Positions 6,722 to 49,453 of a stretch of DNA of 64,000 nt are shown in pieces. Numbering within the stretch: the first letter of the stretch is position 1; each line of letters begins with the position of its first letter. The position numbers were made by a program, and so were the translations under genes. Source of the stretch: Candidatus Nitrospira kreftii. GTDB lineage: Bacteria > Nitrospirota > Nitrospiria > Nitrospirales > Nitrospiraceae. The stretch lies in contig CP047423.1 in NCBI GenBank assembly GCA_014058405.1, positions 2,898,501 to 2,962,500 on the forward strand, given 5' to 3'. Below the pieces are notes generated by a model. It saw nothing but the letters and a program-made list of their open reading frames with translations, was not told the origin of the DNA and ran no database searches.

Positions 6722-7429
6722 CTATAGATGCGCCATGTCATCTCGCTCGTCCGTCTCCTTCGCTTTCCGCCACCGCCGTTCCAACGCATCGCGCGCAATG
6801 TTTCGTCCGCCGAGCCCCACGGCAATCGCTAGAGCCAGGATGACACCACCGAATACGATGGAGAATGCCGCCACCACGATTTCCTTGGCGATGCCGAGCT
6901 GCGTCAAGACCATGGCTGCTGTGAAGAGAAAAATGCCCCAGCGCACCATGCCGGCGATGAATCGTGCTTCTTGAATCTGTGCGTTGACCGTCGCAATCAA
7001 CGTTGCTTCCGCCAAGAAGTTCCCGAGCAGAACGCCGACGAGGATCAAGAGCCCGGCCGCGATAACACTTGGCAAGTAGCCCACCAGTTGACCCATCAGG
7101 TCTGCCGTCGTTGGCAGCCCCAACGCATCCACACCCATGAATATGAAGATGACGAAGACGGTCCAGAAAGCCAGGCGACCCACGATCTGAGAGAACGGTT
7201 GCTTGAATCCTGCCTTTGCCAGCGATGCCTGCAATCCCCATCGCTCGCTCAGCACATCGGCGCGTGCCGCTCGCAGCAGATGTTGAAGGACCGCTTTCAT
7301 GGTCAGTCCGACGAGAATCCCAACTGCGATGAAGCTTACCAGAGCCATCAGCTTAGGAAAAAAGAGCGCCATCCGCATCATCATGTCGCGAAACGCTTCC
7401 ACTATCGCGTCGCCCCATACATTACTCAT
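6722..7429 (-). CDS. MS-channel-like membrane protein (CmpX/TM-helix family), copy 1
   Basis: 235 residues with about five hydrophobic helices (roughly 21-45, 83-104, 115-145, 155-180 and 185-210) and a basic, soluble C-terminal tail. The repeated glycine-rich helices (LPSVIAAGLLILVGVLLGN, FGGVILALAIAVGLGGRNIA) are typical of the 'conserved TM helix' family related to mechanosensitive channels; a canonical MscS beta domain is absent. It is the last gene of the glycogen/trehalose series. Its start lies eight bases inside the preceding glycosyltransferase, so the two are translationally coupled. A paralogue at 45962-46672 sits beside a paralogous glycosyltransferase. A role in solute release or osmotic sensing is inference from family and context. 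Confidence 0.8.
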   Translation of the reverse strand: MSNVWGDAIVEAFRDMMMRMALFFPKLMALVSFIAVGILVGLTMKAVLQHLLRAARADVLSERWGLQASLAKAGFKQPFSQIVGRLAFWTVFVIFIFMGVDALGLPTTADLMGQLVGYLPSVIAAGLLILVGVLLGNFLAEATLIATVNAQIQEARFIAGMVRWGIFLFTAAMVLTQLGIAKEIVVAAFSIVFGGVILALAIAVGLGGRNIARDALERRWRKAKETDERDDMAHL

Positions 7430-8708
7430 CGCTCCACCTCCATCGCTGAATCAGGTACGGCTTCATGGTTTCATATTCGACGGCCAACCGCTCCAGTTCC
7501 TCCTCCACCCGCTTCACGGGTTGCTCACGCGTCGTCAAGACCAGCGACGCGGTATAGCCAAGATAAAGGGGCGTCAAAGCCTTCAGGAGATGTTCGCGAT
7601 GCAACAGGCGGTCATGATAAGCCAACGCGAAGTCGTAGACGACTTGGACCCATAGGCTGGGAGGAAAACGAAAGCGGTCTGTGTCTTCAACACCGAGCTC
7701 CAAAACCTGTTGAAATGTCTCACCGGGTAGAATGATCTGCCACACCGGAAGCAAATCACGAAGCCCTTGGCGAAATCCGTTGATCATTCGCTCCACGTTG
7801 ATTGATCCGCTCGCTGCTCCCAATCCCATCAGAGGGCCGATCGTAGGGACGGTCGCCGAGTTCTTTACGGTCTCCCACTTCTCCTGATATCGCTCCATCA
7901 GATAAAAGAGACAGCCGACTGACTGCGCCACCAGGGCTGATAATTCGCCGATCGGCTTAGCCTGCTGCAGGCGCGGCCCCAGCCCAGCACGGCATATCTG
8001 AAGCGATTCGGCAACCGCGAGCGTCATCACCCATCCGTCGATTCCGAGGTGCGCGATCTCTTGGTCCCACGGCTGCGGCAATACCGCCGAACGAATCATG
8101 TTGGCCGAAAACGCATATGCCCCCCCCAAGTGATAGGGAATACGCTTCCCATAGAGGGCGGCTATCAACGGCGCGAGCAGGGTATTCGTCAATGTCCCGT
8201 CGTACCGGTTGCGCAGGAACCAAGGCAGGACGCAATCGACCCCTTTGCTGATAATCGGATCGAGAAGGAGCTCCGGCCAATGCTCGTCCACTGATTTCAC
8301 GTTACCATCGACGACCAAGCAGGCAGACGCGTTGAGCTTGTCAGTCAGGGTAGCGAGAATGCGGACGGCGGACTCCCGTCCTGGTACGCCGGACTCCGAT
8401 ACCAGCTTGTAAGATGAGGCCAGAATAGGATGATGGATTGTCCAGAGACGCGAACTCTCGCCGATACTCTGTTCGATGGCTTGGGCTGTCCCATCCTGCG
8501 AGCCCGCATCGCAATTGACGACGAGGATGCGCTGCTGTGGAAAGGAGCGGGCACAGCCTTCGATCATTGCACGTACCAGCGTGGGGGCCGTGACCTTATC
8601 GTTGAACGTGAGCAGCCCGATGACGATATCGGCCTGTTCAGCTTCCTCCAGCCGTGTGCGAACCGACTCCGGAAGAAACGAGTCTTCCACCGCTGCATCC
8701 CCCTCCAC
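7422..8708 (-). CDS. GT2/GpgS-like glycosyltransferase, copy 1 (degenerate DXD)
   Basis: 428 residues, starting at a GTG. The N-terminal half is a GT-A fold: IVIGLLTFND opens the nucleotide-binding strand, then ILVVNCDAGSQDGT. Where the family has its metal-binding DXD, this copy reads VVDGNVKS, so the second Asp is replaced by Asn. Its paralogue at 46712-48025 reads VVDSDLRS at the same place. Shared blocks include RYDGTLTN, the IPYHLGGAYAFS segment and LGIDGWVM. The family transfers sugar from a nucleotide sugar, here probably to a glycerate or sugar acceptor in compatible-solute synthesis (inference). It follows treT by 35 bases and overlaps the channel-like gene by eight. Confidence 0.75.
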   Translation of the reverse strand: MEGDAAVEDSFLPESVRTRLEEAEQADIVIGLLTFNDKVTAPTLVRAMIEGCARSFPQQRILVVNCDAGSQDGTAQAIEQSIGESSRLWTIHHPILASSYKLVSESGVPGRESAVRILATLTDKLNASACLVVDGNVKSVDEHWPELLLDPIISKGVDCVLPWFLRNRYDGTLTNTLLAPLIAALYGKRIPYHLGGAYAFSANMIRSAVLPQPWDQEIAHLGIDGWVMTLAVAESLQICRAGLGPRLQQAKPIGELSALVAQSVGCLFYLMERYQEKWETVKNSATVPTIGPLMGLGAASGSINVERMINGFRQGLRDLLPVWQIILPGETFQQVLELGVEDTDRFRFPPSLWVQVVYDFALAYHDRLLHREHLLKALTPLYLGYTASLVLTTREQPVKRVEEELERLAVEYETMKPYLIQRWRWSDE

Positions 8709-8743: not shown

Positions 8744-9943
8744 TCACTCGGTGCTGAGGATTTTCAGGATTGTGAAATAGTCACTCAAATGTCTCGTGAT
8801 CAGGAAGTTTCGCCTGACATGCTCCTTCGCCATCGCACCCATCCGACTCATCACGCCGGGGTTGCTCAGCAGATAGCGGATACGGAAGGCCGCCCCCTCG
8901 ACAGAATGAACGACGAATCCGGTCGCCTCATTCACGATTTGGGTGGACACTCCGCCGGCGGTTCCCCCGATGACCGGCTTTCCCTTCCACATCGCCTCAG
9001 ACACAGCCACTCCGAATCCTTCCTTGAGGGCCTTTTGGATGACAATCGTAGCGCCTCGCTGCAATGCGTTGATTTCGCGGTCGGCCTCCGGCGGCAACTG
9101 GAGGACGTGAATGTCCGGATCATTCTCGGCCGCCTGCTGGACCTCAGCCAGCACGGCCTCACCTTCCGGATCATGCAGCACACCGCTGCCGGCTAAGACA
9201 AGCTGACAATGGTGGTGTTTCTTTGCCATCCGGTAAGCGCGAATCATGCCGATCTGGTCCTTGAATCGGTCAAAGCGCGCGACTTGCAGGAGAATCGGTT
9301 TCCCTCGGGCGATTCCAAATTGATCAAGCACCTGCGTGATCTCGGCGCGTGAGAGCTCACGGTTCTTTTCCGTCAGTGGATCGATTGAGGGATAGAGCAG
9401 AAACTTCGGGATAGGCAGGCGCTGCGCAAATCCAGGCAGCGAAAAAACAGCCGCGTCATATTTCAACACATGTCGCCGAAACAAACTCCACACCGGTCGA
9501 TGAGGCAGTCCGGCATCCAGATGGCAACGCCAGACCCACTTGCCACCTTTACGATGATCGACGAGCGGAGCTGGTTGCGGGTCGTGAACAAAGACGAGGT
9601 CTGCATCAAGATTCAATACCTTGGCATTTCTGGCGTTGACGTCCAGATACGTCTGGTACATCTCATTGGTAATGGTTTCCTCACGCCCTTGCAAACCGTC
9701 AGTGATCCGGCGCGTGACATCGGTGAATTCCTGCGTGCCGGCAATGACTTCCCAACGCGCCTCGGTTCCCATTGCCTTCATGATGGGAACGATCCGCCTC
9801 AAGATTTCAGCCATCCCGCCGCCGTAGCGTACGGCGCTGATATGGAGAAACCTCTTGCCCTGTACCAGATGACTCAATCGATATAAGAAATCGATGGCCC
9901 CCTTCGGAGCCACCGCGCGATATTGCTCCAACTCTCTGATCAT
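8744..9943 (-). CDS. treT: Trehalose synthase TreT-type (GT4), copy 1
   Basis: 399 residues with a GT-B fold. Visible family marks: a glycine-rich acceptor loop (SAVRYGGGMAEIL, about 36-48), FVHDPQPAPL, WVWRCHLD, the second-domain opening PILLQVARFDRFKDQ, and the nucleotide-sugar site EGFGVAVSEAMWKGKPVIG in the C-terminal half. TreT joins NDP-glucose (ADP- or UDP-glucose) to free glucose, giving trehalose in one step. A second TreT lies at 56563-57816; the two share all these blocks. Located after treS and before a glycosyltransferase gene in the glycogen/trehalose series. Glucose as acceptor is assumed from the family; related GT4 enzymes make other disaccharides. Confidence 0.82.
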   Translation of the reverse strand: MIRELEQYRAVAPKGAIDFLYRLSHLVQGKRFLHISAVRYGGGMAEILRRIVPIMKAMGTEARWEVIAGTQEFTDVTRRITDGLQGREETITNEMYQTYLDVNARNAKVLNLDADLVFVHDPQPAPLVDHRKGGKWVWRCHLDAGLPHRPVWSLFRRHVLKYDAAVFSLPGFAQRLPIPKFLLYPSIDPLTEKNRELSRAEITQVLDQFGIARGKPILLQVARFDRFKDQIGMIRAYRMAKKHHHCQLVLAGSGVLHDPEGEAVLAEVQQAAENDPDIHVLQLPPEADREINALQRGATIVIQKALKEGFGVAVSEAMWKGKPVIGGTAGGVSTQIVNEATGFVVHSVEGAAFRIRYLLSNPGVMSRMGAMAKEHVRRNFLITRHLSDYFTILKILSTE

Positions 9944-10114: not shown

Positions 10115-11794
10115 TTACAGCGCCGTCAGTTCGATCCCATAGGGCTCCGACCCTGCCTGTTCCGGCTTGAGGTTCAGCCAGTAATACCCGTAGGGCGCCA
10201 GTGTCACTACATAGGGACGATCTGTCACCTGAGGAAATTGCGACTCGCCCAACAGTTCGACCGGCAGAGCGCCGACGAATTCTTTGAGGTCCAACTCCAC
10301 CGATTGTGCCGACCCGGCCAGGTTATGGACAAGCAGCAGCACAACGTTTTCGTGCCGTCTCACATACGCCAGAACCTTGTCATTCGTCGACTGTAGAAAC
10401 GTCATCGTTCCCCGCCCGAATGCGGGATACCGCCGGCGTGCGGCGATCATCCGCTTCATCCAATGCAACAGCGAATGGGGAATTTCTTTCTGGAACTCCA
10501 CGTTGATCGATTGGTAGCCATAGGTCGGATCCGCCACCAGCGGTAAATACAGGCGCGACGGATCGCACGTCGAGAATCCCGCATTCCGATCCATAGTCCA
10601 CTGCATGGGCGTTCTCACCCCATCCCGGTCCTTCAGTTGGATATTGTCTCCCATGCCGATTTCATCCCCGTAATAAATAATCGGGGTGCCGGGCATCGTG
10701 AAGACCAGACTGTTGAGCAGCTCGATCTTGCGCCGGTCGTTATCTAAGAGCGGTGCGAGACGCCGCGCAATGCCGATATTGCGCCTCATCTTCGGATCGC
10801 GAGCATATGTGTAATACATGTAGTCCCGCTCTTCACCTGAACACATCTCAAGCGTGAGCTCGTCGTGATTGCGGAGAAACAGGCACCACTGGCAATTCGG
10901 TGGGATCTCGGGCGTATGCGTAAACATGTCGATGATCGGATCGCGCGTCTCACTCCGCACACCCATATAGAGTCGGGGCATGAGCGGAAAGTGAAACGCC
11001 ATATGAAATTCATCCCCGTTTCCAAAATAAGGTCGCACATCGGATGGCCATTGATTTGCCTCGGCCAGCAATATGCGGTCTTGATAGGACTCATCAATGC
11101 GACGACGAATATCCTTCAAATAATCGTGCGTCTCCGGCAAGTTCTCACAAATCGTGCCTTCACGCTCAAATAGATACGGCACCGCATCGCACCGAAATCC
11201 ATCCAGTCCCTGATCAAGCCAAAACGCCATCGTATCGAGCATGGCTTGCCGGACTTCCGAGTTCGCATAATTCAAATCCGGCTGATGGCTGAAGAATCGA
11301 TGCCAGTAGAACGCTTTCGCCTCCGAATCCCATGTCCAATTTGATTTTTCAGTATCGATAAAGATGATTCGGGCTTTACCGTACTTGCGATCATTGTCGC
11401 TCCAGACATAGAAGTGGCGCTTGAGCGATTGAGGCGATTGCCGTGCTTCCTGAAACCACGGATGCTGATCGGAGGTGTGATTCAACACCAAATCGACGAT
11501 CACACGCATCCCTCGTCGGTGGGCTTCATCCAGAAAACGGCGTACGTCTTCTGTCGTACCGTATTGTTCAGCCACACTGCGGAAATCCGCCACATCGTAT
11601 CCGTCGTCCCGCAACGGTGAGGGATAAAAGGGGAGCAACCAGAGGCAGTCCACACCGAGCCATTGGAGGTAGTCCAGTTTTCCGATCAAGCCCTGGAAAT
11701 CACCGATGCCGTCCCCATTCCCGTCGGCAAAAGCCTTTACGTGGATCTCATAAAACACCGCGTCCTTGTACCAGAGAGGATCTGCGCTCAGCAT
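10115..11794 (-). CDS. treS: Trehalose synthase (maltose alpha-D-glucosyltransferase)
   Basis: 559 residues, a GH13 (beta/alpha)8 enzyme of the length usual for TreS without fused maltokinase. The N terminus is typical ([20 protein letters not shown]). Catalytic residues are readable: nucleophile D203 in [10 protein letters not shown], acid/base E245 in LLAEANQWP, and D311 in [19 protein letters not shown] is the usual TreS motif before the beta C-domain. It interconverts maltose and trehalose in the cytoplasm. The maltokinase and glgE genes lie upstream in the same series, so flux from trehalose to maltose-1-phosphate and glycogen is possible. Confidence 0.92.
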
Positions 11795-11814
11795 GGTCCG
11801 ATTGCCTACTCCTG

Positions 11815-12516
11815 CTATGTCCCGGCTGATTTCGCCAACTGCTCATCGCACATGGTCAGGACGTTCGATCGCAGTCGCTCCAGACTGCCGAGATAAGGAT
11901 TCAAGGCTTTCATCCGATCGGCCAGATCCGGCAACTTCAGACTGCTCCGGAACCAGGCAGAAAAATCGTTCTCTTCCCGCTGTAACCGCAAGTGCGCTTC
12001 GAATACATGGTAATAAATGGCGCTGGAATCGACGTCCGAAATAGCATCGCGGAACTCATGAAGTGTCTGCGCTTCTACACCGGTGGGCACCTCCAGAATG
12101 CGCGATCGATTGAAGTAGAACGGCGCCCCAAACCCCGTGCGCGGGACCGCCGTCATGCCGGAGAGGTGATCATCGATGAGGGAAATCAATTCTTCCCGAA
12201 GCGCTTCCAAACTCTGAAAATCGAACGGATCCACCACCGACAGTCGCTCGGCAAGAACATGATCCTGGACTTGCTGAGCCGCCCATTGGGCAAAGTCGTT
12301 CGGGTAGGTACGCTCAATGAACCGCGTCCGCAGAAAATAGCTGTGCGTATGGTAATACACCGAGTCGAGCGGAACTTCTTCCAGCATCTCCACCAACTGG
12401 CGTTCGTCCGCAGCCTGTTTCCCGAGAATCTCTTGAATTTCACTGCATCCGATGAATCGGAATACTGTATCGGCATGCGTCGTTGTCACAATTCCCCCTT
12501 CTTCATTCGGCAGCAT
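11815..12516 (-). CDS. DUF5752-like protein
   Basis: 233 residues, soluble, no signal peptide. The sequence has two similar halves: [14 protein letters not shown]...[14 protein letters not shown]...[11 protein letters not shown] and, later, [42 protein letters not shown]. Both pair a Y-Y-H motif with N-D-F-x-x-W, so it looks like an internal duplication. I associate this pattern with DUF5752, found near trehalose and glycogen genes, but no reaction is known to me. It begins two bases after the GH15 stop and ends 20 bases before treS, so it belongs to the operon. A GTG nine codons downstream, behind a G-rich run, is an alternative start. Confidence 0.7.
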
Positions 12517-12518
12517 AA

Positions 12519-14342
12519 CTAGACCGACACAGTCCGCGGCGAACTCAACGCTCGATCGAGATTGTACGCAGCACTGATCAGGCCGATGTGGGCGAACGCC
12601 TGGGGGAAATTCCCCAGATGCTCTCCCGTTACCGACAATTCTTCCGCATAGAGCCCGAGGTGATTGGCATAGCTCAAAATCTTTTCAAAGATTAGTCGCG
12701 CTTCTTCCAGACGACCCGCTCTCGTTAGAGCCTCGACTAACCAGAAGGAACAGAGAGTAAACGTCCCCTCTTGGCCGGACAAACCGTCGGGGGCGGCTTC
12801 TTCTGGGATGTACCGAAACACCAATGCGTCTGATACCAGGCTAGCCATGATCCGTTCAATCGTCGATTGCATGCGTGGATCTGTCGGCGAGAGGAAAAAT
12901 ACGAGTGGCAGAACCAACGCACTGGCGTCCAGCGCGTGGCCGCCGTATTCCTGCACAAAAGCCTGCCACTCTTGATCCCAACCATGGTGCATCACATCTC
13001 GATAGATGCAGTCTCGCACCTCTATCCACTTGGCGCGATCAGCAGGAAATCCCCGCTTGTCTGCGAGGCGAATGCCTCGGTCGAGAGCAACCCAGCACAT
13101 GACTTTCGAATAGACAAACTGCCTTTGCCCGCCCCGTACCTCCCATATCCCTTCGTCAGGTTGATCCCAATTGGCAGAGACATAGTCCAGCAGGCGAGAC
13201 AACCCGACCCAACTGTCATAGCTGATAGGTGACCCGTGCTTATTATAGAGATACGCGGCATCCATCAGCGCTCCGTACATATCGAGTTGGCGTTGTGATG
13301 CAGCGCCGTTGCCGATACGGACCGGTGACGATCGCTGATATCCTTCCCAATGAGTAAGGACGTCTTCTTGTGTGATTCGACGCCCATCAATGCCGTAGAG
13401 AACTTGCAGCGAGCCATCATGGTTTAACTCATGACAGCGGGCTTCAAGCCACTGCATGAATCGACCTGCCTCATTTGAGAAACCGAGGCGCAACAGTGCA
13501 TACAGAGTGAAGGCTGCATCTCGAATCCAGGTGTAGCGATAGTCCCAATTCCTTGCACCACCGATTGCTTCCGGCAAGCTGGTCGTCGGCGCGGCCACGA
13601 TCGCACCAGTCGGCGCGTAGGTCAGGAGCTTGAGCGTCAACGCTGAGCGTTGGACCATTTCTCGCCATCTCCCGGTGTACCGACATTGGCTCAACCATTT
13701 TCGCCAATAGGCCATAGTCTCCCGCAGCGCAGTTTCATCTGTTTGCGGCACATCAAGAACGCTCTCGGTCGTCTCCGACTCTAATTGTACGAGAAAGAAG
13801 GTGACTTGCTGCCCTTCTTCCAGGGTGAACTCTGCCTCCACAGTTTCCTGATTGGTGATGAGCGGCACAGGACTTACCAAACCAATCGTCAGTGAAGCCG
13901 AACGAAAGATCGCCCCTGCTGAGCGCAATGTCACCGTATGTTCATCCCGTCCAAAATTGAATGCGGGTTGGCACTCCAACCGAAACAGAATCTTCCCCCT
14001 GACGACCTTGACCATACGAATAATTTGATGTCGTGTCGGATGAACTCCCGGTTCATCGCCTTCGATGGGCATGAAATCCGTCAACTCACCCACACCGTCA
14101 TGATGCAGAAAGCGAGTCAACAGGACGTTGGTCTCCGGTAGATACAGTTGCTGTCGCTTCCCGTCATCAGGCGGTGCAATACTGAACCGTCCGCCCCGTC
14201 GCTCATCCAATAACGCGCCAAACAAGCTGGGCGAATCGAAGTGAGGGAAGCAACACCAATCGATCGATCCGTCCTTTCCCACCAATGCGACGGTGTGGAG
14301 GTCCCCAATCACCCCATAATCTCCGATCGGCTTATAGGCCAT
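12519..14342 (-). CDS. GH15 glycoside hydrolase (glucoamylase or trehalase type)
   Basis: 607 residues. The N-terminal beta domain opens with [20 protein letters not shown] and [20 protein letters not shown], the classic GH15 start. The (alpha/alpha)6 domain shows [20 protein letters not shown], then [16 protein letters not shown] (general acid Glu) and [15 protein letters not shown] (general base Glu) near the C terminus. GH15 members release glucose from alpha-glucans or, in an actinobacterial branch with this same N terminus, hydrolyse trehalose. The neighbours (mak upstream, treS downstream) fit either role. No signal peptide, so cytoplasmic. Confidence 0.85.
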
Positions 14343-14567
14343 ATCCGTCCTTCCTCAACGTCACACTAACAGAATGCTGACAAATCTCTCCAGCGGTGTT
14401 CTCGCGTCACATAGAGGCTCCACCTACCGAAGCGTATGCCTCGCCTCCGCGCTCGCTGCGGCCTTGCTGGACGGCCTTTTTGCGCATTCTAGAATGTAGA
14501 GCGCCACAGTTTGTCCTGTCATCTTGGAATGGTGCACGAAACAGAAACCAAGTTTTTCAGCAGACTG
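14343..14567. other. Gap between the maltokinase and GH15 genes
   Basis: 225 bases that break the otherwise tight minus-strand series. A GGCC-loop-GGCC stem followed by TTTTT (about 14462-14484, plus-strand sense) is the only structure seen. A promoter for the GH15-treS part could lie here, but I see no clear boxes. Confidence 0.3.
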
Positions 14568-16139
14568 CTAGACACTCTGAACCAAGCTCCTGATTCCTTG
14601 GAGCGGGATCGACAACCAATCCGGTCGATTTCTCATTTCATACCGCATTTCGTAGACGGCTTTATCAAGTTCGTACACGCGAATGACCCGGAGCGCCTCG
14701 TCCCAGGTCGCCGGAACAAAGACCGCCTCCCCCGGTCGAGCAACAGAACAGTAGCCGTCGAGAAAGGAGGCACGAACGGCGCCTTCCCATTCCGTCATCA
14801 ACTCAACATCCGTTGAAGACACCTCCGGGCGCTGTCTCAAGACGGCGTGAGTTGCATAATTGAATGAGCGCAGCATTCCTCCGACATCTTTTAATGGGCA
14901 GACCTTAGCGCGCCGCTCCTCAAGCGGCCTGGCAGGTTCTCCTTCGAAATCGATCACCATAAAACTATCGGTCGTTTTGAGCACTTGCCCGAGATGATAA
15001 TCTCCGTGGTGGCGGATCTTTACCGCCCTTGCTTGAGCCAAGAGCCGGAGGTCATCGAACCGGTCGCGGCAAGCCGTTTCCAGCCCAGTCACTTCGTCAC
15101 CCAGCAAACCGACCGCCGACTGCTGCGCCGGCTGAAGCGCGCGCAAATCGTGACAAACTTCTGTGAGCTGCTTCGTCATTCCGACTTTCCACTGATCGAC
15201 ATCGCGCAGTGTGATCGGTTCCGGACGAAAGGCCTCCGGTTCCTGCCGAGAAGCCAGTGCCACATGCACGCCAGCCGTGATCTCACCGAGCCGTCGAAAC
15301 TGGGCCAAGAGCGGATCGGAAATTGCCGCCACGGTGATCGCGAGGTTGTCTCCGCGGTCCATGACCACCTGACCGCCTTCATCCAAGAGTTTCCCGAGAT
15401 GAGCCAACGTATAGGACCATCCATCACCGACGTTCGGTACGAATCGCTGGAGCACCGCCACAGTCACCGGCTGCGCCTCATCCGTCATATCGCTGTCGTA
15501 CGTAATGATGCCGAGCAGAGCCGGCACATCACGACACGTTGTTTGCGTCGTCAGGAATTCCAGGACCTCGCTATCGGGATGGATGCCTGCGTCCAGCTTG
15601 CGGATCAATTTTATGATCGCCCGCCGGTCGAGGATCACCGACGTATTGCTCTGTTCAGCAGACAAGACCGTGGCTTCCCGCACAGGTGTTGCCAATTCCT
15701 CCCTCCCTTGCGGCACGGCACAGCCACTGAGACATCCGAGCTGCCCTGCCAGTTCCCGGCCTTGTGCCACCATCTCGTACAAACTAATCCAGGTTGCTGA
15801 ATCTTCGGCTGCATCGCAGACCCACTCATTGGCTGAAGCGCCTGTCAGCTCGACGATCGCCCTGCCATCGTCCTGATCCATCCGTGGCCGGATCGTCAAC
15901 GGCATCATATAGTGTTCCTTGGCGCCGCCTCGATACTCGACCGACGCCATCGCCAACATGCGGCGGTCGGCCCCATGAGACAGGTCGAACGCATCGGCAA
16001 CGCGTACATCCGTCAACGGCTTTCCCTTCCCAGCGAACCATCGCTGCCGCTGGAGATATTCGATCAGGAGGCGACGCCCCTGTCCGCTCAGCGCGACCAG
16101 AGCCTGTTGGATCCCTACTTGATGTTCGGCTTGCCCCAT
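14568..16139 (-). CDS. mak: Maltokinase (GlgE pathway)
   Basis: 523 residues from ATG 16139, which has GAGGG nine bases upstream and lies 11 bases after the glgE stop; a longer frame to 16190 would overlap glgE and is less likely. The N-terminal cap contains QRQRWFAGKGKPLTDVRVAD, the usual maltokinase opening. The kinase core has IRHHGDYHLGQVL (catalytic Asp, about residue 383) and MVIDFEGEPARPLEERR (metal-binding Asp, about 396), followed by SPLKDVGG-like CPLKDVGGMLRSFNYA. It phosphorylates maltose to maltose-1-phosphate, the substrate of GlgE encoded just upstream. TreS, the source of maltose, is encoded downstream. Confidence 0.9.
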   Translation of the reverse strand: MGQAEHQVGIQQALVALSGQGRRLLIEYLQRQRWFAGKGKPLTDVRVADAFDLSHGADRRMLAMASVEYRGGAKEHYMMPLTIRPRMDQDDGRAIVELTGASANEWVCDAAEDSATWISLYEMVAQGRELAGQLGCLSGCAVPQGREELATPVREATVLSAEQSNTSVILDRRAIIKLIRKLDAGIHPDSEVLEFLTTQTTCRDVPALLGIITYDSDMTDEAQPVTVAVLQRFVPNVGDGWSYTLAHLGKLLDEGGQVVMDRGDNLAITVAAISDPLLAQFRRLGEITAGVHVALASRQEPEAFRPEPITLRDVDQWKVGMTKQLTEVCHDLRALQPAQQSAVGLLGDEVTGLETACRDRFDDLRLLAQARAVKIRHHGDYHLGQVLKTTDSFMVIDFEGEPARPLEERRAKVCPLKDVGGMLRSFNYATHAVLRQRPEVSSTDVELMTEWEGAVRASFLDGYCSVARPGEAVFVPATWDEALRVIRVYELDKAVYEMRYEMRNRPDWLSIPLQGIRSLVQSV

Positions 16140-16150
16140 CGATTTCGCCC

Positions 16151-18151
16151 TCACGAAAAGAAATCGACTTCCTGCTCTCGATGCGTCCAACGCCGCACCA
16201 CGAAAATGGCGGCCGGCTCGTCCTGCGGATCCAATCGCACAATGTAGCGATCGCCGACCATAAGATCGCGCCGATCAGTGATCACATTGTGCAATTGATA
16301 GGTGTCTTCCGCTTTGATACCAAGCGCTTCAATCGGAATCCGAAGATGGGCTTCCTGATAGTGGAATGGACTGAGATTCACCGCCACGAGCACTGAGTTC
16401 CGCTTATCGGCCGTACTTTTTCCAAAGAACACAACCTGGTCGTTACTAGACTCATAGAATTCGAGATTCTCCAGTTCATGCAGTGCGGGATTGTCTCGCC
16501 TGATTCGATTGATCAACGTGACATAGTCGACGATGTGGCCTGGGCGATCCCAATCCCACACCTTAATCTCATATTTCTCCGAATCGAGATATTCCTCTCT
16601 CCCCGGCAGGGCTCGGTTTTCGCACAGCTCATACCCGCTGTAGATGCCGTACGAAGGTGATAACGTCGCCGCCAGTACCAACCGGAATTTGAAAGCCGGC
16701 CGGCCGCCTTGCTGAAGAATCTCCGGCAAAATGTCAGGCGTATTCGTGAAGAAGTTCGGCCGGAAATACTCCTTCATCTCGGTCTGGGACAACTCCGTCA
16801 TATACTCAGTCAATTCCTGCTTGAAGTTCCGCCAGGTGAAGTAGGTGTAGGATTGCGTAAACCCGGCTTTGGCCAGCGCCTTCATCATCTTCGGCTTGGT
16901 GAAGGCTTCGGAGAGAAACAGCACATCGGGATACTGCGCCTGCACCTCCCTGATCAGCCAGCCCCAAAAACTCACCGGCTTGGTATGTGGATTATCGACG
17001 CGGAAGATTCTCACGCCATGATTCGCCCAAAAGAGAATGACACGTTTCATCTCATTCCACAGTCCACGCCAATCCTGACAATAAAAATCAACGTTGAAGA
17101 TGTCCTGATATTTCTTGGGCGGATTCTCCGCGTACTTGATCGTGCCGTCCGGGCGGTGCGCAAACCACTCAGGATGTTCTTTCACATAGGGATGGTCCGG
17201 CGAGCAATTGATGGCAAAATCCAACGCGAGCTCCATCCCCTGAGCACGGACGGCCTTCTCGAACCGATCGAAATCTTCGATCGTACCTAGGCTCGGCTCC
17301 ACCGCGTCGTGGCCACCCCGCTCATTCCCAATCGCATAGGGACTGCCGGGATCGGTCGGAGCCGAGGTGAGGGAATTGTTTTTTCCTTTCCGGTTTGTCC
17401 GCCCGATCGGATGGATCGGAGTCAGATACAGCACATCGAACCCCATGGCCTTGATTGCCGGCAATCGCTTCTCACACTCTTGAAAGGTCGATCCTCTCTC
17501 AGGATTGGTCCCCTGAGAACGGGGAAATATTTCATACCAGGCCCCGAATCGCGCGCGGACTCGATCGACCACCAGCTCCAGCTCCCGATCGTACAGGGTC
17601 CAGGCAGTACGTTCCTGGTGCCGTTCCACAAGTTCGGAGAGTTCCTCATTGAGTGCCACCGTGAGTTGCGCCTCCTGCGTATCCGACGAACGCCATTGCG
17701 TGAGAAACGCTGCCAATCGGACTTTGTCCGGTTCCTCCGCGCGTTTCACCGCCTGCTCGACCAACGCTCGCCCTTCCAGAAGCTCGCTTTCAATACGCTC
17801 TCCCGCCTGGGATTTCTTGATCGCCTCTCGACGCCAGGATTCAAACGTGTTCGTGAAGGCCCCGATGGTATAGAGATAGCGCGTGTTTTCCTGAAGATCG
17901 AAATGGCCGACCCATCTGTCGTTATCGGTGTGCGACATCGCCGCCTCGTGCCATGACGTTTCTTTGATCGTCCGATATCGAAGCACAGCGGTCAGAACGT
18001 CGTGCCCTTCCTTGAAAATATCAGCAGACACACTCAGACGATCTCCGACTTCACGTTTGATCGAGTACCGTCCGCCGTTGATCTCGGGTTGTACCGCTTC
18101 GATGATGATCGGCGACCACGCTTCAGGCTTCGCTTTCGTCCTCAACCCCAC
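16151..18151 (-). CDS. glgE: Alpha-1,4-glucan:maltose-1-phosphate maltosyltransferase
   Basis: 666 residues from a GTG at 18151, chosen because AAAGGAGG stands nine bases before it; an upstream ATG (18217) would add 22 residues with no ribosome-binding site. The start then agrees with family openings (IIIEAVQPEINGGRYSIKRE). Domains: beta N domain, helical S domain, GH13_3 catalytic barrel, C domain. FRVDNPHTKPVSFWGW contains the nucleophile (about D386), LFLSEAFTKPKMM the acid/base (about E415), and PTDPGSPYAIG and YFRPNFFTNTPDILPE are GlgE-specific. It extends alpha-glucan with maltose from maltose-1-phosphate. Together with TreS, Mak and GlgB the whole GlgE route is in this window. Confidence 0.94.
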   Translation of the reverse strand: MGLRTKAKPEAWSPIIIEAVQPEINGGRYSIKREVGDRLSVSADIFKEGHDVLTAVLRYRTIKETSWHEAAMSHTDNDRWVGHFDLQENTRYLYTIGAFTNTFESWRREAIKKSQAGERIESELLEGRALVEQAVKRAEEPDKVRLAAFLTQWRSSDTQEAQLTVALNEELSELVERHQERTAWTLYDRELELVVDRVRARFGAWYEIFPRSQGTNPERGSTFQECEKRLPAIKAMGFDVLYLTPIHPIGRTNRKGKNNSLTSAPTDPGSPYAIGNERGGHDAVEPSLGTIEDFDRFEKAVRAQGMELALDFAINCSPDHPYVKEHPEWFAHRPDGTIKYAENPPKKYQDIFNVDFYCQDWRGLWNEMKRVILFWANHGVRIFRVDNPHTKPVSFWGWLIREVQAQYPDVLFLSEAFTKPKMMKALAKAGFTQSYTYFTWRNFKQELTEYMTELSQTEMKEYFRPNFFTNTPDILPEILQQGGRPAFKFRLVLAATLSPSYGIYSGYELCENRALPGREEYLDSEKYEIKVWDWDRPGHIVDYVTLINRIRRDNPALHELENLEFYESSNDQVVFFGKSTADKRNSVLVAVNLSPFHYQEAHLRIPIEALGIKAEDTYQLHNVITDRRDLMVGDRYIVRLDPQDEPAAIFVVRRWTHREQEVDFFS

Positions 18152-18287
18152 TTGTCGATACCTCCTTTCAAGTGGCTCAAGATGTTGGAGCGCGATTCGG
18201 CTCCTCGCTTTGAGCAACTGGATGTGTGATGTACCCCCAATACTCTCTCAGTGACGCCGGCCCCCTCCGACGCAACTGTCGAATCAT

Positions 18288-35496: not shown

Positions 35497-36596
35497 AACG
35501 CCACCCGATGATGACCGCTGTGCAAATAGTTCATCGTTTGAACTGTCAGAAGAATCGTGAGATCGAGTGTCGCCTTCCCCTCCGAAATGGCTAGCCTAAG
35601 ACGTTGCTCGCGACAACGTGTGACGATGTCCTCAAATACACGGTCGATCGTATACTGATACTCTCCGGTCCAGGCTGCCACATCCCGACAGACATCACGG
35701 CGAATGCGCGCCAAAAACTGTACCGCCGAGATATTCACACGATGCTCGGGTGCAGAAGAAAAGATCCGCCGCAAGTCACGATCATAGAACGTCGGATGAG
35801 GCGTCCCGTAGTGCCCACGCTTCTGTTCGTAATGTTTCCGCAAAGTCCGGCGAAGCCGGGGCAACGAATCCACATGTTGCTTGGTCGTCACCAACGGTCG
35901 GGCATCGACCAACGAGGCCATCAACTGGTCCATGTATTCCAATTTCTTCAATGCCGGCCAATCGGTATACCGTTCCCGCCACAGCGACTGTGGATTCAGC
36001 CACACTGCAAAGGTCTCTGCAAAATCTTCGTCCGGATGGCTTTGGGCGTACCACATGTCGAGGTGCAGGACATAGCTCTTGCTGTATGGTTTTGGTGTAT
36101 AGAACTTAGGATAGGGTTGAGTCGACATTCCGAACATCGCCTGCCGGTCTCGACGACGACGAATACCATACGCGTTTTCCAAGGCATGTCCGGCCTCGTG
36201 CCGAAGAATGCGCATACACCATTCGGGCGTTCCACCTTCTACTTCCAGCATCTGCGCCAGTTCCAGTTGAGCCAACCGTGGATGTGCGAGATAAAAGGGA
36301 ACGGCAATGCCGGGGACTCCATCCGGAGTGAACCACTCGTTGGAGAGCCAGAAATGGGGGCGAAAGAGGAGGCCTCGATCGCCCAGTTCTCGGTACAGCC
36401 GAGCAATTTGCTCGGTGAGCTGACTCTGTTCCACGCTAAGATCAAGGTCGCAGAAACGTAGATCGAGGAGTTTCTCATCAGACCAATTGACCCAGGCTGG
36501 CTCCTGCGACGAACGATGCCGATGTCTCTCCTGGTTGGAGCATGGTTCACGATGCGAGCCTGCTCTCGCCGCGCCTATCACGCGAAACCCTTTCAA
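35493..36596 (-). CDS. Putative zinc metallopeptidase (HEAGH)
   Basis: 367 residues. The active-site motif ILRHEAGHALENAYG (about 130-144) supplies two His ligands and the catalytic Glu, and the acidic HPDEDFAETFAVWLNP motif about 60 residues on likely gives the third ligand. There is no signal peptide or membrane helix, so it is cytoplasmic. I place it in the putative zinc-binding metallopeptidase family often seen beside ATP-grasp ligases. It starts at a TTG that overlaps the MscS stop (TTGA) and ends in an overlap with the ATP-grasp gene. The first ~35 residues are not conserved-looking, so the true start may be internal. Confidence 0.75.
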   Translation of the reverse strand: MKGFRVIGAARAGSHREPCSNQERHRHRSSQEPAWVNWSDEKLLDLRFCDLDLSVEQSQLTEQIARLYRELGDRGLLFRPHFWLSNEWFTPDGVPGIAVPFYLAHPRLAQLELAQMLEVEGGTPEWCMRILRHEAGHALENAYGIRRRRDRQAMFGMSTQPYPKFYTPKPYSKSYVLHLDMWYAQSHPDEDFAETFAVWLNPQSLWRERYTDWPALKKLEYMDQLMASLVDARPLVTTKQHVDSLPRLRRTLRKHYEQKRGHYGTPHPTFYDRDLRRIFSSAPEHRVNISAVQFLARIRRDVCRDVAAWTGEYQYTIDRVFEDIVTRCREQRLRLAISEGKATLDLTILLTVQTMNYLHSGHHRVAL

Positions 36597-37507
36597 TTTG
36601 ATGTTGGCTGGGCTGATTGCAGTCCCGCCACATACAGCGGAGGCGGTGTTCCTTGTTTCGGCTCCCCCCAGTAAATCGTTTGATGTGGGAACGGGATTTC
36701 GATCCCTTTCGCATCGAAGGTCTTCTTAATCCGACGATTCATCTCCCGTCCCACCCGCCATTGTTTGATCGGCCGAGTTTTGATCCGACACTTGATGATC
36801 ACGGCCGACTCGGCGAATTGATCCACCCCCAACATTTCCAACGGCTCCAGAATATCCTCTGAAAACTGAGGGTCTTGGCGGAGTTCATCCCCGATGTCGC
36901 GCAGAACCGCCATGACTTCGTCGACATCTTCTCGGTATGCGATACCGACTTCGAAGAGGTAGAAGGCATAGACTTTTGTCATGTTCTTCACCTTATCGAT
37001 GACTCCATTCGGTACCACATGCACGTTTCCAGATAGATCCCGAAGGGTCACTGTCCGAAGTTTCACCTCTTCGACTACCCCTCCGACTCCCGCAATCTCC
37101 ACCACATCGCCGACTCCGATCGAATCTTCGAGAAGGATGAAGAACCCCGTAATCACATCCTTCACCAAACTTTGGGCGCCAAAGCCAACGGCCAATCCCC
37201 CAAGACCGGCTGCCGCCAGGATTGGTTTCAGATCGACTCCGACCTCCGACAACATCATCATGCCTCCCACGGTCAAAATCGCCACGCGAGCCACGTCACG
37301 AATAACATGAGTCAGAGTCGTGGCCCGTTTCACCTGCGACTCGGTCGGCAACGTTCCTTCATACACTTTCTGAAATCGATCCATCGCCCGTCTGACGATC
37401 GCGAGTCCCACAATCATCATGACGGCGATGATCAGGACTCGCAAACCCGACGTCGTCGACCAACCGACCCATCGATCGATGAACCCCGTCACATACGATT
37501 CCACCAT
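36593..37507 (-). CDS. MscS-type small-conductance mechanosensitive channel
   Basis: 304 residues, ATG 37507 behind GGAGGG. N-terminal helices (VLIIAVMMIVGLAIVRRAM; ILTVGGMMMLSEVGVDLKPI), then the pore helix and beta domain signature ILAAAGLGGLAVGFGAQSLV, KDVITGFFILLEDSIGVGD and VHVVPNGVIDKVKNM. The alpha/beta C domain ends with IPFPHQTIYWGEP. It opens under membrane tension and releases solutes on hypo-osmotic shock. First gene of a trio with the metallopeptidase and ATP-grasp ligase, all overlapping. Confidence 0.92.
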   Translation of the reverse strand: MVESYVTGFIDRWVGWSTTSGLRVLIIAVMMIVGLAIVRRAMDRFQKVYEGTLPTESQVKRATTLTHVIRDVARVAILTVGGMMMLSEVGVDLKPILAAAGLGGLAVGFGAQSLVKDVITGFFILLEDSIGVGDVVEIAGVGGVVEEVKLRTVTLRDLSGNVHVVPNGVIDKVKNMTKVYAFYLFEVGIAYREDVDEVMAVLRDIGDELRQDPQFSEDILEPLEMLGVDQFAESAVIIKCRIKTRPIKQWRVGREMNRRIKKTFDAKGIEIPFPHQTIYWGEPKQGTPPPLYVAGLQSAQPTSN

Positions 37508-41778: not shown

Positions 41779-42885
41779 CTACGACGACCCCAGCCGTAGC
41801 CCTGTCGTCGGATCAAATAGGTGAAGAGTCGCGCGTGGCGCTGAGACTGCGACACGCTCCCCGATCTTCGGGACAAACCCGGCTTGTGCAGAACCGATTA
41901 TGGTGACGACCTCGTCATGATCATTGAGCTCCGCCGTTACCCACAAGGTTGGCCCCGAAGGTTCGGTTAGGCGAACAATACCGAATCCGGCACCTTCAGC
42001 TCCTGTATCGTTTGCCGGACTCACCACGATGTCTTCCGGTCTGAGGCCGACGGTCAGAGTCTGCCCTTGGTTGACTGTTGGTGCATCCGGAGGCCGTGTG
42101 AGATACAACGGTCCAGCTTGGATGCTGTCGTTTCTGAGCCTCGCTGAGAGCAAATTCATCGGCGGATACCCCATGAAGCCTGCCACGAAGAGATTGGCGG
42201 GAGTGGCATAGATGTCATGAGGCCGACCGACCTGCTGAATCCGTCCCTGGTTGAGCGCCGCAAGCCGATCGCCTAAGGTCATGGCTTCTGTTTGATCGTG
42301 GGTCACATAGACCGTCGTGACCTTCAGTTCCTTGTGAAGTCGGAGCAACTCCGCGCGCATGGAGGCGCGCAATTGTGCATCGAGATTCGACAGTGGTTCG
42401 TCCAGCAGAAACAGTCTCGGCTTCCTGATGAGCGCCCGTCCCAAGGCGACCCGTTGCCGTTGGCCACCGGAGATTTCGCGTGGCCGCCGATTGAGCAATG
42501 CTGACAAGCCAAGGAATCCTGCCACCCGTTGCACTTCTTCCTCTATGCGCTTCCGCTCGAGGCGCTTTGCGCGGGGAGCAACGCTCAGTGGGAAGGCCAT
42601 GTTTTCGCGCACAGTCATGTGGGGATACAGGGCATAGCTTTGAAAAACCAACGCCACGTCACGTTCGCGCGGCTCTAGGTCGGTCACATCGCTGCCGTCG
42701 AACAAAATACGACCGGCAGTCGGCTGGTCGAGACCGGCAAGGAGACTCAACAGCGTAGATTTGCCGCACCCGGAGGGACCCACGAGCACGAAGAACTCGC
42801 CGTCATGCACCGTCAACGTGAGTGGAGGGAGGATGGTCTTTTGCCCGATGCGTTTCTCGATAAGCTCGATCCGGACTTCGGCCAT
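41779..42885 (-). CDS. Sugar ABC transporter ATP-binding protein (MalK/UgpC type)
   Basis: 368 residues. Walker A GPSGCGKST (about 36-44), Q loop LVFQSYALYPHMTVRENM, signature ISGGQRQRVALGRALIRKPR, Walker B LFLLDEPLSNLDAQLRASMR, switch His in VYVTHDQTEAMTLGDR. A C-terminal TOBE/OB part of ~130 residues (GLRPEDIVV...) marks the carbohydrate CUT1 class. Last gene of the seven-gene operon, four bases after the second permease. Confidence 0.93.
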   Translation of the reverse strand: MAEVRIELIEKRIGQKTILPPLTLTVHDGEFFVLVGPSGCGKSTLLSLLAGLDQPTAGRILFDGSDVTDLEPRERDVALVFQSYALYPHMTVRENMAFPLSVAPRAKRLERKRIEEEVQRVAGFLGLSALLNRRPREISGGQRQRVALGRALIRKPRLFLLDEPLSNLDAQLRASMRAELLRLHKELKVTTVYVTHDQTEAMTLGDRLAALNQGRIQQVGRPHDIYATPANLFVAGFMGYPPMNLLSARLRNDSIQAGPLYLTRPPDAPTVNQGQTLTVGLRPEDIVVSPANDTGAEGAGFGIVRLTEPSGPTLWVTAELNDHDEVVTIIGSAQAGFVPKIGERVAVSAPRATLHLFDPTTGLRLGSS

Positions 42886-42889
42886 TTCC

Positions 42890-43753
42890 CTATCCTTTCA
42901 CGCTGCCGGCCGTCAGCCCGGCAATGATGTGGCGTTGAAACGCCAGGGCAAGAGCGGCAACCGGCAACGTAACCACCAGAGAGGCCGCCGCCAAATCGCC
43001 CCAAGGAATTTCATACAGTCCAGGGAATAGGGCAACCGCCACCGGCGCGGTGCGAGTGGTATCACTGGCCGTCAGCGTCAGGGCGAACATGAACTCATTC
43101 CACGAATAAATGAAGACCAACAGCGCGGCAACAGCGAGTCCCGGTCGCGCGAGGGGCAACATAACGGTCAGCAAGGCCTGTAATGGTGTGCAGCCATCGA
43201 TCCGCGCAGCCTGATAGAGCTCCTTGGGAAGCTGCTGAAAGAAACTCGTCAACAACCACACGGCGAGCGGCAGCGAATAGACCGCATGGGTCAGTCCCAC
43301 TGCGACAAGAGTATCCCTTAACCCGAACTCCCGCATCAGGAGATATAAAGGACTGATAACGGCGATAGGTGGGAACATCGATGTGACGAGCGCCACCCCT
43401 AATATCACCGACTTACCGGCAATCGGTAGCCGTGCGAGGGCAAACGCACAGAATGCACCAACCACAATGGCGGTCACCGTCGCACTTGCCGCCACGACCA
43501 TGCTGTTCGCAAGCGACCGTGGCAATGAAGACTGAAGCAGGACCCGATCATAGTGAACGCTGGTCACGCGCTCCGGGATGAGTGGCGGCAGACGCACGAG
43601 ATCCTGATCAGGCTTGAGCGATGTGACCGCCTGCCAGAGCACCGGCCCGAGACAAAACAACCCGACAAAAAGTAAGACACATGCAGTAAAGCCATGGGTG
43701 CGGATCCAGATCATCATCGTGAAGCCAGCCTGATCGTCATGGCCACGCATCAT
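42890..43753 (-). CDS. Sugar ABC transporter permease (MalG type)
   Basis: 287 residues with six helices. The coupling-helix (EAA) motif is ELYQAARIDGCTPLQALLTV MLPLARPG-like, near residues 180-205. The N terminus (HGFTACVLLFVGLFCLGPVL) and the segment LKPDQDLVRLPPLIPERVT are typical of CUT1 MalG/SugB proteins. The start overlaps the MalF-type stop by four bases. With its partners it forms the inner-membrane channel of the importer. Confidence 0.9.
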   Translation of the reverse strand: MMRGHDDQAGFTMMIWIRTHGFTACVLLFVGLFCLGPVLWQAVTSLKPDQDLVRLPPLIPERVTSVHYDRVLLQSSLPRSLANSMVVAASATVTAIVVGAFCAFALARLPIAGKSVILGVALVTSMFPPIAVISPLYLLMREFGLRDTLVAVGLTHAVYSLPLAVWLLTSFFQQLPKELYQAARIDGCTPLQALLTVMLPLARPGLAVAALLVFIYSWNEFMFALTLTASDTTRTAPVAVALFPGLYEIPWGDLAAASLVVTLPVAALALAFQRHIIAGLTAGSVKG

Positions 43754-44688
43754 GCGCTCTCCTGAACATGCCTGCGTAACAGCAACAAATACAACAGAGA
43801 CAGGACGGCGGCGAGCACAAACATCGCCGTTGCCAGGGCAGATCCATATCCAAACTGCAATGTTTGGAACAGCGTCTTGTATGCATAGATCGACAGTGTC
43901 TCAGTGCTGTTGCCTGGTCCTCCGCCGGTCAACACGAAGACCGCGTCAAACACCCGGACCGCATCCATCGTGCGGAATACAAGCACGATGACCACGACCG
44001 GCATCAACAGCGGCAACGTAATCCGTCGAAACTGCTCCCAAGTTCCCGCCCCATCTGCCCGCGCGGCAGCGTAGAGCTCCTGCGGAACGGTCTTTAACCC
44101 GGCCAGCAGAAGCAATGCCGCGAACGGCGTTGTTTTCCAGACGTCCATGACGACGGCGGCATGAATCGCCCAATCGGGATCCGCCAGCCAATCGATACGA
44201 CCGCCCGTCATGCCAGCCGCAGAGAGCAAATAATTGAGCAGGCCGAAGTCGGGCTGGTAGAGCCAGGCCCAGATCTGCGCGGACACCACGGTCGGGATGG
44301 CCCAAGGCAGGATGATCATGACGTGGGCCCATCGCAGTCCCCCGCCCCCTCCGTCCGACAAGCGGTTCAAGAGCAGCGCAAACCCGAAACCCAACAATAG
44401 CTCCGCCGAAACTGACAAAACCGTGAAGTAGAGGGTCGTTCGGCAAGCGGCCCAGAACCGGTCGTCTCCCCACAATTGGAGATAGTTTCGAACGCCGACG
44501 AATTCGTCGATTCCAAAGATCGGCAACTGCTGACGCAGACTGAGCCACAAGGCCGCTGCAATCGGTGCGAGTGCGATCAGACCCACCAACAAGAAGGCAG
44601 GACTGGCAAACAGGTAGCCCCATGCTCGCTCGGACAGATGGATCATCCCACTCCGTTTCTTGATCTCAGCGAACGAACGATCGATCAT
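43750..44688 (-). CDS. Sugar ABC transporter permease (MalF type)
   Basis: 312 residues with six helices; the first is AYLFASPAFLLVGL-like (WGYLFASPAFLLVGLIALAP), typical of MalF/SugA. The EAA motif lies in ELYAAARADGAGTWEQFRRI. The helix pair VRVFDAVFVLTGGGPGNSTE and TLSIYAYKTLFQTLQFGYGS is the usual C-terminal signature. The start overlaps the binding-protein stop (ATGA). Confidence 0.9.
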   Translation of the reverse strand: MIDRSFAEIKKRSGMIHLSERAWGYLFASPAFLLVGLIALAPIAAALWLSLRQQLPIFGIDEFVGVRNYLQLWGDDRFWAACRTTLYFTVLSVSAELLLGFGFALLLNRLSDGGGGGLRWAHVMIILPWAIPTVVSAQIWAWLYQPDFGLLNYLLSAAGMTGGRIDWLADPDWAIHAAVVMDVWKTTPFAALLLLAGLKTVPQELYAAARADGAGTWEQFRRITLPLLMPVVVIVLVFRTMDAVRVFDAVFVLTGGGPGNSTETLSIYAYKTLFQTLQFGYGSALATAMFVLAAVLSLLYLLLLRRHVQESA

Positions 44689-45962
44689 GATCGCCCCATC
44701 CTTGCGGGAGAGGTCTGTTCTCCCATGATCTGATCGACACGGCGTCTGATGACATCAAGGGCCTCGGCAGGCGACCTCCGTCCAACGACCACTGCGCTGA
44801 CTTCCGGCTGCACGGCCTGAGACACTAACAGATAATACGGCGTCACCGGACGAGGCTTCGCGTCCAATAAAATCGGATAAAGATTCTTTAAGAGAGGGCG
44901 GACTTTAAGCAAGGACTCGTCGGTATATAGGGCTTGGCGCACCGGATTGTACCCCAATTCCATCGCGATCTTGCGTTGCGTATTCGGAGAGGTCAAGAAG
45001 CTGATCAGATCCCTGACGACCTCTTGATGGGTGGAACTGCTCGGTACGGCGAGCATCCACCCTCCCAACACCGGCGCACTGCTAAATCCGGGAAAGGCGG
45101 GAAGCGGGACGATGCCGATTTTACCGCGAACCGGCGAGCCCTCTTGCTGAAGCAGGGACCAGGCATAGGGCCAATTTCTCATGAACAGGGCATGCCCCTC
45201 GCCGAACATCCAGCGAGTCGACTCTTCATCGGCCATGCTCGTGGAGAGCGGAGTAATTCCATGCGTCGCAATCATCTCACGCAAGAACCGTAAGCCGTAT
45301 TCGGCACGGTCACGATCACCAACCCAGAGATCCGTCCCGTTACTCCGAAGCACCTCTAGCGCGACACACATCAAACCTTCATATTGTTTCCCTTGCCAGA
45401 CGAAACCAGCCAAAGCGGAGTCCCGCTCCGCCTTTAACACCAACTTAGCCATATGGGCGAGTTCAAGCCACGTGCGAGGCGGTTCAAGACCATGGCGATC
45501 CAACAAATCACGCCGGTAATAGAGGACACCGGCATCCACATACCAGGGCACGGCGTACAGACGCCCTTGGAACGTCGCTGCCTCAATCGGCCCGGGAAAG
45601 AACTCACCCTGCTCGGCCGGAGTCAGGACCTCGTCCAACGGCGCAATCCATCCTGCCTTGGCGAATTCCTGCGCCCAGATCGTGTCGATCGCAAGAAGAT
45701 CGAACGGAGCTTTCCCTCCATCCAAATTCATCGCGTAATACTGATGCTGTCGATCCGAATCGGACGGTAAGAGCTCTTCTCGAACCAGGATACCCGGATG
45801 GCGTTGCTCAAAATCACGGAGCAGGTCGGACAGCACCCGTCCCTCACCCGATAGTTTCCCATGCTTGAAGACCAAGACCGTCGGTACGCGATCAGTCCCT
45901 TCTCCGGTCTGTGTGCACCCGAGCATCGTTGCCACCCAGAGCAGGAGAAAAGCGCCGATCAT
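44685..45962 (-). CDS. Sugar ABC transporter substrate-binding lipoprotein
   Basis: 425 residues from ATG 45962, which shares one base with the stop of the channel-like gene (TGATG); the longer frame to 46181 would run through that gene. A lipobox, VATMLGCTQ, places the lipidated Cys near residue 17. Family features of group 1 (MalE/LpqY) proteins: VLVFKHGKLSGEGRVLSDLL, FDLLAIDTIWAQEFAKAGWI, LYAVPWYVDAGVLYYRRDLL. The ligand may be trehalose, glucosylglycerate or a related disaccharide, judged only by the operon; recapture of leaked solute would fit. Confidence 0.88.
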   Translation of the reverse strand: MIGAFLLLWVATMLGCTQTGEGTDRVPTVLVFKHGKLSGEGRVLSDLLRDFEQRHPGILVREELLPSDSDRQHQYYAMNLDGGKAPFDLLAIDTIWAQEFAKAGWIAPLDEVLTPAEQGEFFPGPIEAATFQGRLYAVPWYVDAGVLYYRRDLLDRHGLEPPRTWLELAHMAKLVLKAERDSALAGFVWQGKQYEGLMCVALEVLRSNGTDLWVGDRDRAEYGLRFLREMIATHGITPLSTSMADEESTRWMFGEGHALFMRNWPYAWSLLQQEGSPVRGKIGIVPLPAFPGFSSAPVLGGWMLAVPSSSTHQEVVRDLISFLTSPNTQRKIAMELGYNPVRQALYTDESLLKVRPLLKNLYPILLDAKPRPVTPYYLLVSQAVQPEVSAVVVGRRSPAEALDVIRRRVDQIMGEQTSPARMGRS

Positions 45963-49230: not shown

Positions 49231-49453
49231 GATGACGCTCCCTCACATTCAGCTCAGTTGGGGCTTCCCTATCTCAGCGTCGCCTCCGCCACGGCCAGAT
49301 CTGCCCCAGCATCGCACAGATGAGAGATTAATCCCAGATGGAATTTCATGAATTGTTGCATCGTCCTATATAGTTCATTGCGCTCCCCTTCATACAGAAA
49401 AGCACTCCCGGCAGCCACCTTTCACAAGCTCTTGGGTTCATTTAGGATTGGCA

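Follow-up and report, generated by a model that had tools for sequence, protein, structure and literature searches.

Why does a gene for a glycosyltransferase-like protein lie directly upstream of a gene for a channel-like protein at two places in the window (the whole stretch of 64,000 nucleotides from Candidatus Nitrospira kreftii analysed here), and do the two proteins work together? An earlier note on this DNA had described two paralogous gene pairs of like order, overlapping or tightly spaced. This was borne out, and all four open reading frames (ORFs) were found:

7422–8708, minus strand: GTa, the transferase of copy 1; a degenerate homolog of glycosyltransferases of the GT81/GT78 fold, recognized by its ORF and its identity to GTb
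6722–7429, minus strand: TMa, the membrane protein of copy 1; MscS-like transmembrane protein with a PF05552 helix, no beta domain and the C-terminus DDMAHL
46712–48025, minus strand: GTb, the transferase of copy 2; intact glycosyltransferase with the motifs PGKG, DSD and GAKIH, its nearest predicted fold being that of mannosylglycerate synthase
45962–46672, minus strand: TMb, the membrane protein of copy 2; MscS-like transmembrane protein with two PF05552 helices and the C-terminus DDLRHL

In pairwise alignments, TMa and TMb were 36% identical over 236 amino acids (E 1e-51), and GTa and GTb 37% over 414 amino acids (E 1e-101). Both copies had the transferase first and the membrane protein second, with an overlap of 8 bp in copy 1 and a gap of 39 bp in copy 2. 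GTa may start at a GTG codon at 8690, which is better spaced behind GGAGGGGG than the start at 8708. Copy 1 and copy 2 each fell within a separate multi-genome clade, both in the transferase tree and in the membrane protein tree. The copies therefore did not arise by recent local duplication, and a recent tandem origin of the pair was ruled out, since they belong to different old clades of both trees. Of the proposal that the pairing was kept after a duplication, the paralogy of the pairs stood, but the copies are not recent local duplicates.

The pairing of transferase and membrane protein (TM) genes was far more frequent than expected by chance. Across 148 Nitrospirota genomes, a TM gene lay directly downstream of the transferase at 64 of 65 GTb-like loci, the single miss lying at a contig end, and more distant transferase loci of the phylum had it in this position in 13 of 16 cases. 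Conversely, 78 of 83 close TM homologs in these genomes were encoded behind a transferase, as were 0 of 13 weaker TM relatives in the Nitrospirota. Several of the misses were due to contig ends. Each of the 67 genomes that had the transferase had the TM as well; of the 81 without the transferase, 2 held the TM, both incomplete. In a species-level collection, the pair was present in 80 of the 80 closest loci, a count biased to near kin because these loci are the closest homologs. Paired loci included records named Zixibacteria, Acidobacteria, Aminicenantes, KSB1, Gallionellales and Geobacteraceae; with phyla past these named records tallied by group, the pairing spanned at least five phyla. Results were mixed in the Acidobacteriota and in the phylum to which the Geobacteraceae record belongs: close homologs had their partner, and a clade of intact transferases was without a TM. 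The intact transferases lacking a TM comprised 30 homologs and formed one clade. The class of the Gallionellales match contained almost no further members of this transferase family, and no transferase–TM fusion was found among all loci. The earlier note had made a link between the two families depend on their adjacency outside this lineage; adjacency held there, with one clade of intact transferases lacking the partner. The pairing is a widespread conserved two-protein module.

PF05552, a conserved transmembrane helix of mechanosensitive channels, was the sole domain matched in TMa and TMb. The cytosolic beta domain PF00924 was absent from 6722–7429 and 45962–46672 in the domain search, and the chain ended approximately 20 residues past the third transmembrane helix (TM3), which was Gly/Ala-rich. 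In a structural model of moderate confidence (pLDDT 80, pTM 0.54), the C-terminal half (residues 106–230) superposed on residues 14–141 of nine MscS entries with Z-scores of 9.2–10.6; the top nine rows of the comparison were all MscS, although helical bundles with Z below about 13 can match by chance. With moderate confidence, the modelled protein thus superposes on the MscS transmembrane helices through the pore-lining TM3. The window also encodes a complete MscS homolog with a beta domain (36593–37507; PF00924, PF21082, PF21088) near a D-Ala-D-Ala ligase-like gene.

Partnered TMs ended in [DE][DE]-Phi-x-His-Phi. Of 61 such TMs left after thinning, 57 had His as the penultimate residue, versus 0 of 20 unpartnered ones. 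The 10–20 residues between TM3 and this tail were variable. On the transferase side, the C-terminal helical domain carried the motif R-[EDG]-H-L-L-x-[AS]-L-x-P-L-Y, with His381 in 131 of 136 TM-associated homologs versus 1 of 30 TM-less homologs. The unpartnered TMs occupied one side of one branch of the TM tree. Neither the tail nor His381 was counted as statistically independent evidence of docking; because each reflects one evolutionary change, the two correlations suggest docking but do not prove it. Upstream of five unpartnered TMs (L185, L189, L190, L193 and L196), no hidden transferase was found. Two of these, the tail-less homologs L190 and L193 from Acidobacteriota, lay near GH15-family genes, with no transferase detected.

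The transferases had been likened to the glucosyl-3-phosphoglycerate synthase GpgS, and neither is that enzyme. GTb matched the family models Glycos_transf_2 and, weakly, GpgS, and the same search matched no family to GTa. With the GpgS equivalog model NF010496 (cut-off 262), GTb scored 44.5 bits, below the cut-off, and GTa gave no match. This cut-off and the occurrence of GpgS as a separate or fused protein ruled out that the transferase is GpgS itself; in the window, the GpgS-type gene is the one upstream, at 47986–49230. A search of the PDB with the single sequence gave no match, whereas a profile of the transferase family had GpgS as best relatives (E 7e-9). The AlphaFold model of GTb (pLDDT 85) superposed on the mannosylglycerate synthase MgS (GT78; PDB 2bo4, 2bo7) over its full length including the C-terminal helical domain (Z 35.2, 354 residues), and on GpgS (GT81) over the glycosyltransferase domain (Z 20.7). 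GTb differs from MgS in sequence (18% identity) and in being paired with a membrane protein. The Pfam model MGS_GT (PF21969, cut-off 27 bits) did not match the GTb of the window, and the GTb part of a fusion protein (L233) just reached the cut-off with 27.3. GTb shares the PGKG, DxD and His motifs with GpgS, but the Arg of the GpgS acceptor motif GRVT is a Thr in GTb, and a separate GpgS gene adjoins GTb or is fused to it. L233 joined a GpgS domain (411.7 bits with NF010496) and a GTb domain in one protein, with a TM encoded behind it; two more genomes had this architecture (L234, L235). The fusion ties GTb to a sugar–glycerate pathway. Such pathways have known second glycosyltransferases, Ggs and MggA, and GTb may either add a second sugar or act directly on glycerate.

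Copy 2 is surrounded by the following genes:

47986–49230, minus strand: GpgS-type glucosyl-3-phosphoglycerate synthase (355.9 bits with NF040724, below the model's cut-off of 700)
49448–50344, plus strand: HAD-IIB phosphatase of the mannosyl-3-phosphoglycerate phosphatase family (TIGR01486, 239.8 bits, cut-off 164.75), divergent from the copy 2 operon
44685–45962, minus strand: ABC solute-binding protein (PF01547, 5.6e-35)
41779–44688, minus strand: two ABC permeases and one ATPase, extending the copy 2 operon; adjoining genes overlap or are separated by 4 bp

The GpgS-type gene overlapped the start of GTb by 40 bp, and its position upstream of GTb was kept in relatives. The likely start of the solute-binding protein is the ATG at 45962, which overlaps the stop of TMb (TGATG); the TTG at 46181 proposed by the ORF finder is probably too far upstream. 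The gene order of the copy 2 operon with its ABC genes was conserved at loci L009–L013 and L015, and the order GpgS, transferase, TM and phosphatase was present in operons of relatives. Copy 2 sits in a putative glucosylglycerate operon with GpgS, phosphatase and ABC importer. The genome of the window held a third membrane paralog (G000:C1:1512545-1513249) in a GpgS–TM–phosphatase cluster without a transferase. This third locus (L006:7722-10520), with GpgS, a TM with the C-terminus ENLRHL, a phosphatase and no transferase, was also present in another genome (G102; L221, L223), and two further TMs adjoined GpgS without GTb. The transferase is therefore not the sole neighbour of the TM.

Copy 1 is part of a trehalose cluster:

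8744–9943, minus strand: TreT-like trehalose synthase, upstream of GTa (PF21269, 7.6e-46; 354 bits with NF041139, below the model's cut-off of 775)
10115–18217, minus strand: rest of the copy 1 cluster, comprising a TreS/alpha-amylase family protein, DUF5752, GH15, maltokinase and GlgE

The same gene set flanked GTa and its TM in relatives. The window from 8744 to 41737 forms a trehalose/glycogen island of approximately 33 kb with TreT, TreS-like, GH15, maltokinase, GlgE, GlgB, isoamylase-type and more GH13 proteins, which suggests several parallel trehalose and alpha-glucan routes.

The copies also differed at the catalytic columns, read against the GpgS residues Lys114, Asp134, Asp136 and His258, whose roles are known (PMC2581804). 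The set was intact in GTb (K118, D141, D143 and H255), whereas GTa had R, D, N and Q in these columns, with the motifs PGRE, DGN and RLQ. With the catalytic Lys, the second Asp of the DxD motif and the metal-binding His all replaced, GTa is predicted to be catalytically inactive. Among non-identical homologs, the catalytic residues were intact in 138 and altered in 28. All 28 degenerate transferases had a TM, and the TM-less transferases were all intact. TreS, Mak or GlgE was encoded near 20 of the 28; the other 8 were short Acidobacteriota loci with no listed neighbour. Catalytic loss occurred at no fewer than three independent points of the transferase tree, and the TM was always kept. Against its nearest relatives, GTa showed dN/dS values of 0.13–0.21; values of 0.07–0.21 together with intact frames indicated purifying selection and ruled out a decaying pseudogene. 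Degenerate groups were closer to GTb over the C-terminal domain (identity 0.49, 0.38) than over the N-terminal, catalytic half (0.35, 0.16), whereas intact TM-paired transferases showed the reverse (0.45 C-terminal versus 0.69 N-terminal). By these identities, conservation shifts from the catalytic half to the C-terminal domain in degenerate transferases, and we conclude from the sequences that the copy 1 transferase is probably retained for something besides ordinary catalysis.

Some GT-A enzymes lack a DxD motif, and GTa may have a metal-independent activity. The pairs could then reflect plain operon co-inheritance of two osmoprotective proteins that make no contact, GTa being a diverged enzyme with such an activity. 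Common function suffices for adjacency, as is known from channels encoded within ectoine gene clusters (cited in PMC13342039). Plain co-inheritance is nevertheless an unlikely explanation: it fails to predict a TM beside every degenerate transferase while the TM-less ones are all intact, a conserved extreme C-terminus behind a variable linker, or the shift of conservation to the C-terminal domain.

The earlier note was aware of no such system in the literature, but precedents have been published. In the msc-gt-tpsp operon of Thermoproteus tenax, the 197-aa MSC resembles only the transmembrane part of MscS, and the GT alone has no trehalose-6-phosphate synthase activity but activates the synthase by complex formation; in its authors' model, synthesis takes place under stress and the MSC serves for release (PMC3634074). 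As in copy 1, an MSC without a beta domain is encoded beside a GT in a trehalose cluster, the MSCs being likened here by description. The T. tenax GT, however, belongs to family GT4 (GT-B fold) and its enzyme is the fused TPSP, described as unique to Thermoproteus and Pyrobaculum, whereas the transferases of the window have a predicted GT81/GT78-like GT-A fold. GTa is not a GT4-family protein (it aligns to GTb, of predicted GT-A fold), and no TPSP was seen in the copy 1 cluster. Also unlike the T. tenax operon, the Nitrospira-type pair occurs with TreT/TreS/GlgE/Mak or GpgS and in several bacterial phyla. By analogy, the module appears to resemble the T. tenax system in outline, with a different transferase fold and pathway. 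For ectoine, too, MscS-type channels have been reported within biosynthesis clusters (Czech 2022, as cited in PMC13342039), so that a mechanosensitive-channel gene lies among genes for making an osmolyte, a likeness drawn from that citation. CmpX of Pseudomonas aeruginosa is an MscS-related mechanosensitive channel homolog, likened by description, and the passage of PMC10965496 on it mentions no glycosyltransferase partner. 'EctM' (PMC5924519) was discarded as a precedent, being a BCCT transporter and not a channel. Judged against the open-licence literature, the pseudo-transferase and the tail are the new features.

The T. tenax system also bears on whether the TM conducts at all. As a membrane anchor or tension sensor and not an efflux valve, it could switch GTb, and via GTa the trehalose enzymes, on and off. 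The adjacency and tail data fit this equally, PF05552 without a beta domain leaves conduction unproven, and the GT partner in T. tenax is an activator acting through complex formation (PMC3634074). Against a mere anchor or sensor, the C-terminal half of the TM superposes on the MscS pore helices with the Gly/Ala-rich third helix kept, and the T. tenax MSC inhibits growth of Escherichia coli, which osmolarity partly relieves, as expected of a channel (PMC3634074). We consider a sensor without efflux possible though rather doubtful.

Transferase and membrane protein acting as one complex is suggested by copy 1, because its transferase has lost catalytic residues, yet the pairing and the conserved channel tail remain. 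That the two proteins work together, as proposed earlier, was well supported: the genes adjoin in at least five phyla, the partner is retained where catalysis has been lost, and the C-terminal tail is conserved. The more specific proposal, solute synthesis coupled to tension-gated release, agrees with copy 2, where a putative channel is encoded in a glucosylglycerate operon that also has an ABC importer; it does not fit copy 1 as it was worded, because GTa no longer has the Lys, the metal-binding His or the second Asp of its DxD motif and is predicted to be inactive. We infer that the TM is MscS-like, with a pore-type third helix and a flexible C-terminal tail but without the cytosolic beta domain, and that this tail docks on the transferase, which would thereby provide the membrane protein with its cytosolic body. 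Active GTb of copy 2, together with GpgS and the phosphatase, would produce a glycosylated glycerate osmolyte, either glucosylglycerate or a derivative with two sugars; the channel would let it out on hypo-osmotic shock, and the operon's own ABC importer would take it up again. Catalytically dead GTa of copy 1 would be an adaptor or regulator joining the channel to the trehalose and alpha-glucan enzymes, a role modelled on the T. tenax GT, the activator of trehalose synthase in the msc-gt-tpsp operon. We hold the chances of this whole scheme, with docking tail, osmolyte-making copy 2 and adaptor copy 1, to be about even. A channel that carries a separate transferase-fold cytosolic body on a His tail, with a dead transferase as regulatory subunit in trehalose clusters, is put forward more tentatively, with the balance somewhat against it.

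The making of osmolytes and their emergency release have mostly been treated separately, and the module would unite both in one conserved gene pair, found in several phyla and among them in Nitrospira, an abundant nitrite oxidiser. It offers a concrete, testable contact between the channel tail and the C-terminal domain of the transferase fold. Repeated catalytic loss with the channel partner kept is a natural experiment that sets enzyme function apart from that of the partner. The idea of a glycosyltransferase-like protein as regulator, known from T. tenax, is thereby extended to bacteria. If the proposed scheme is true, osmolyte synthesis and release would be one physical machine.
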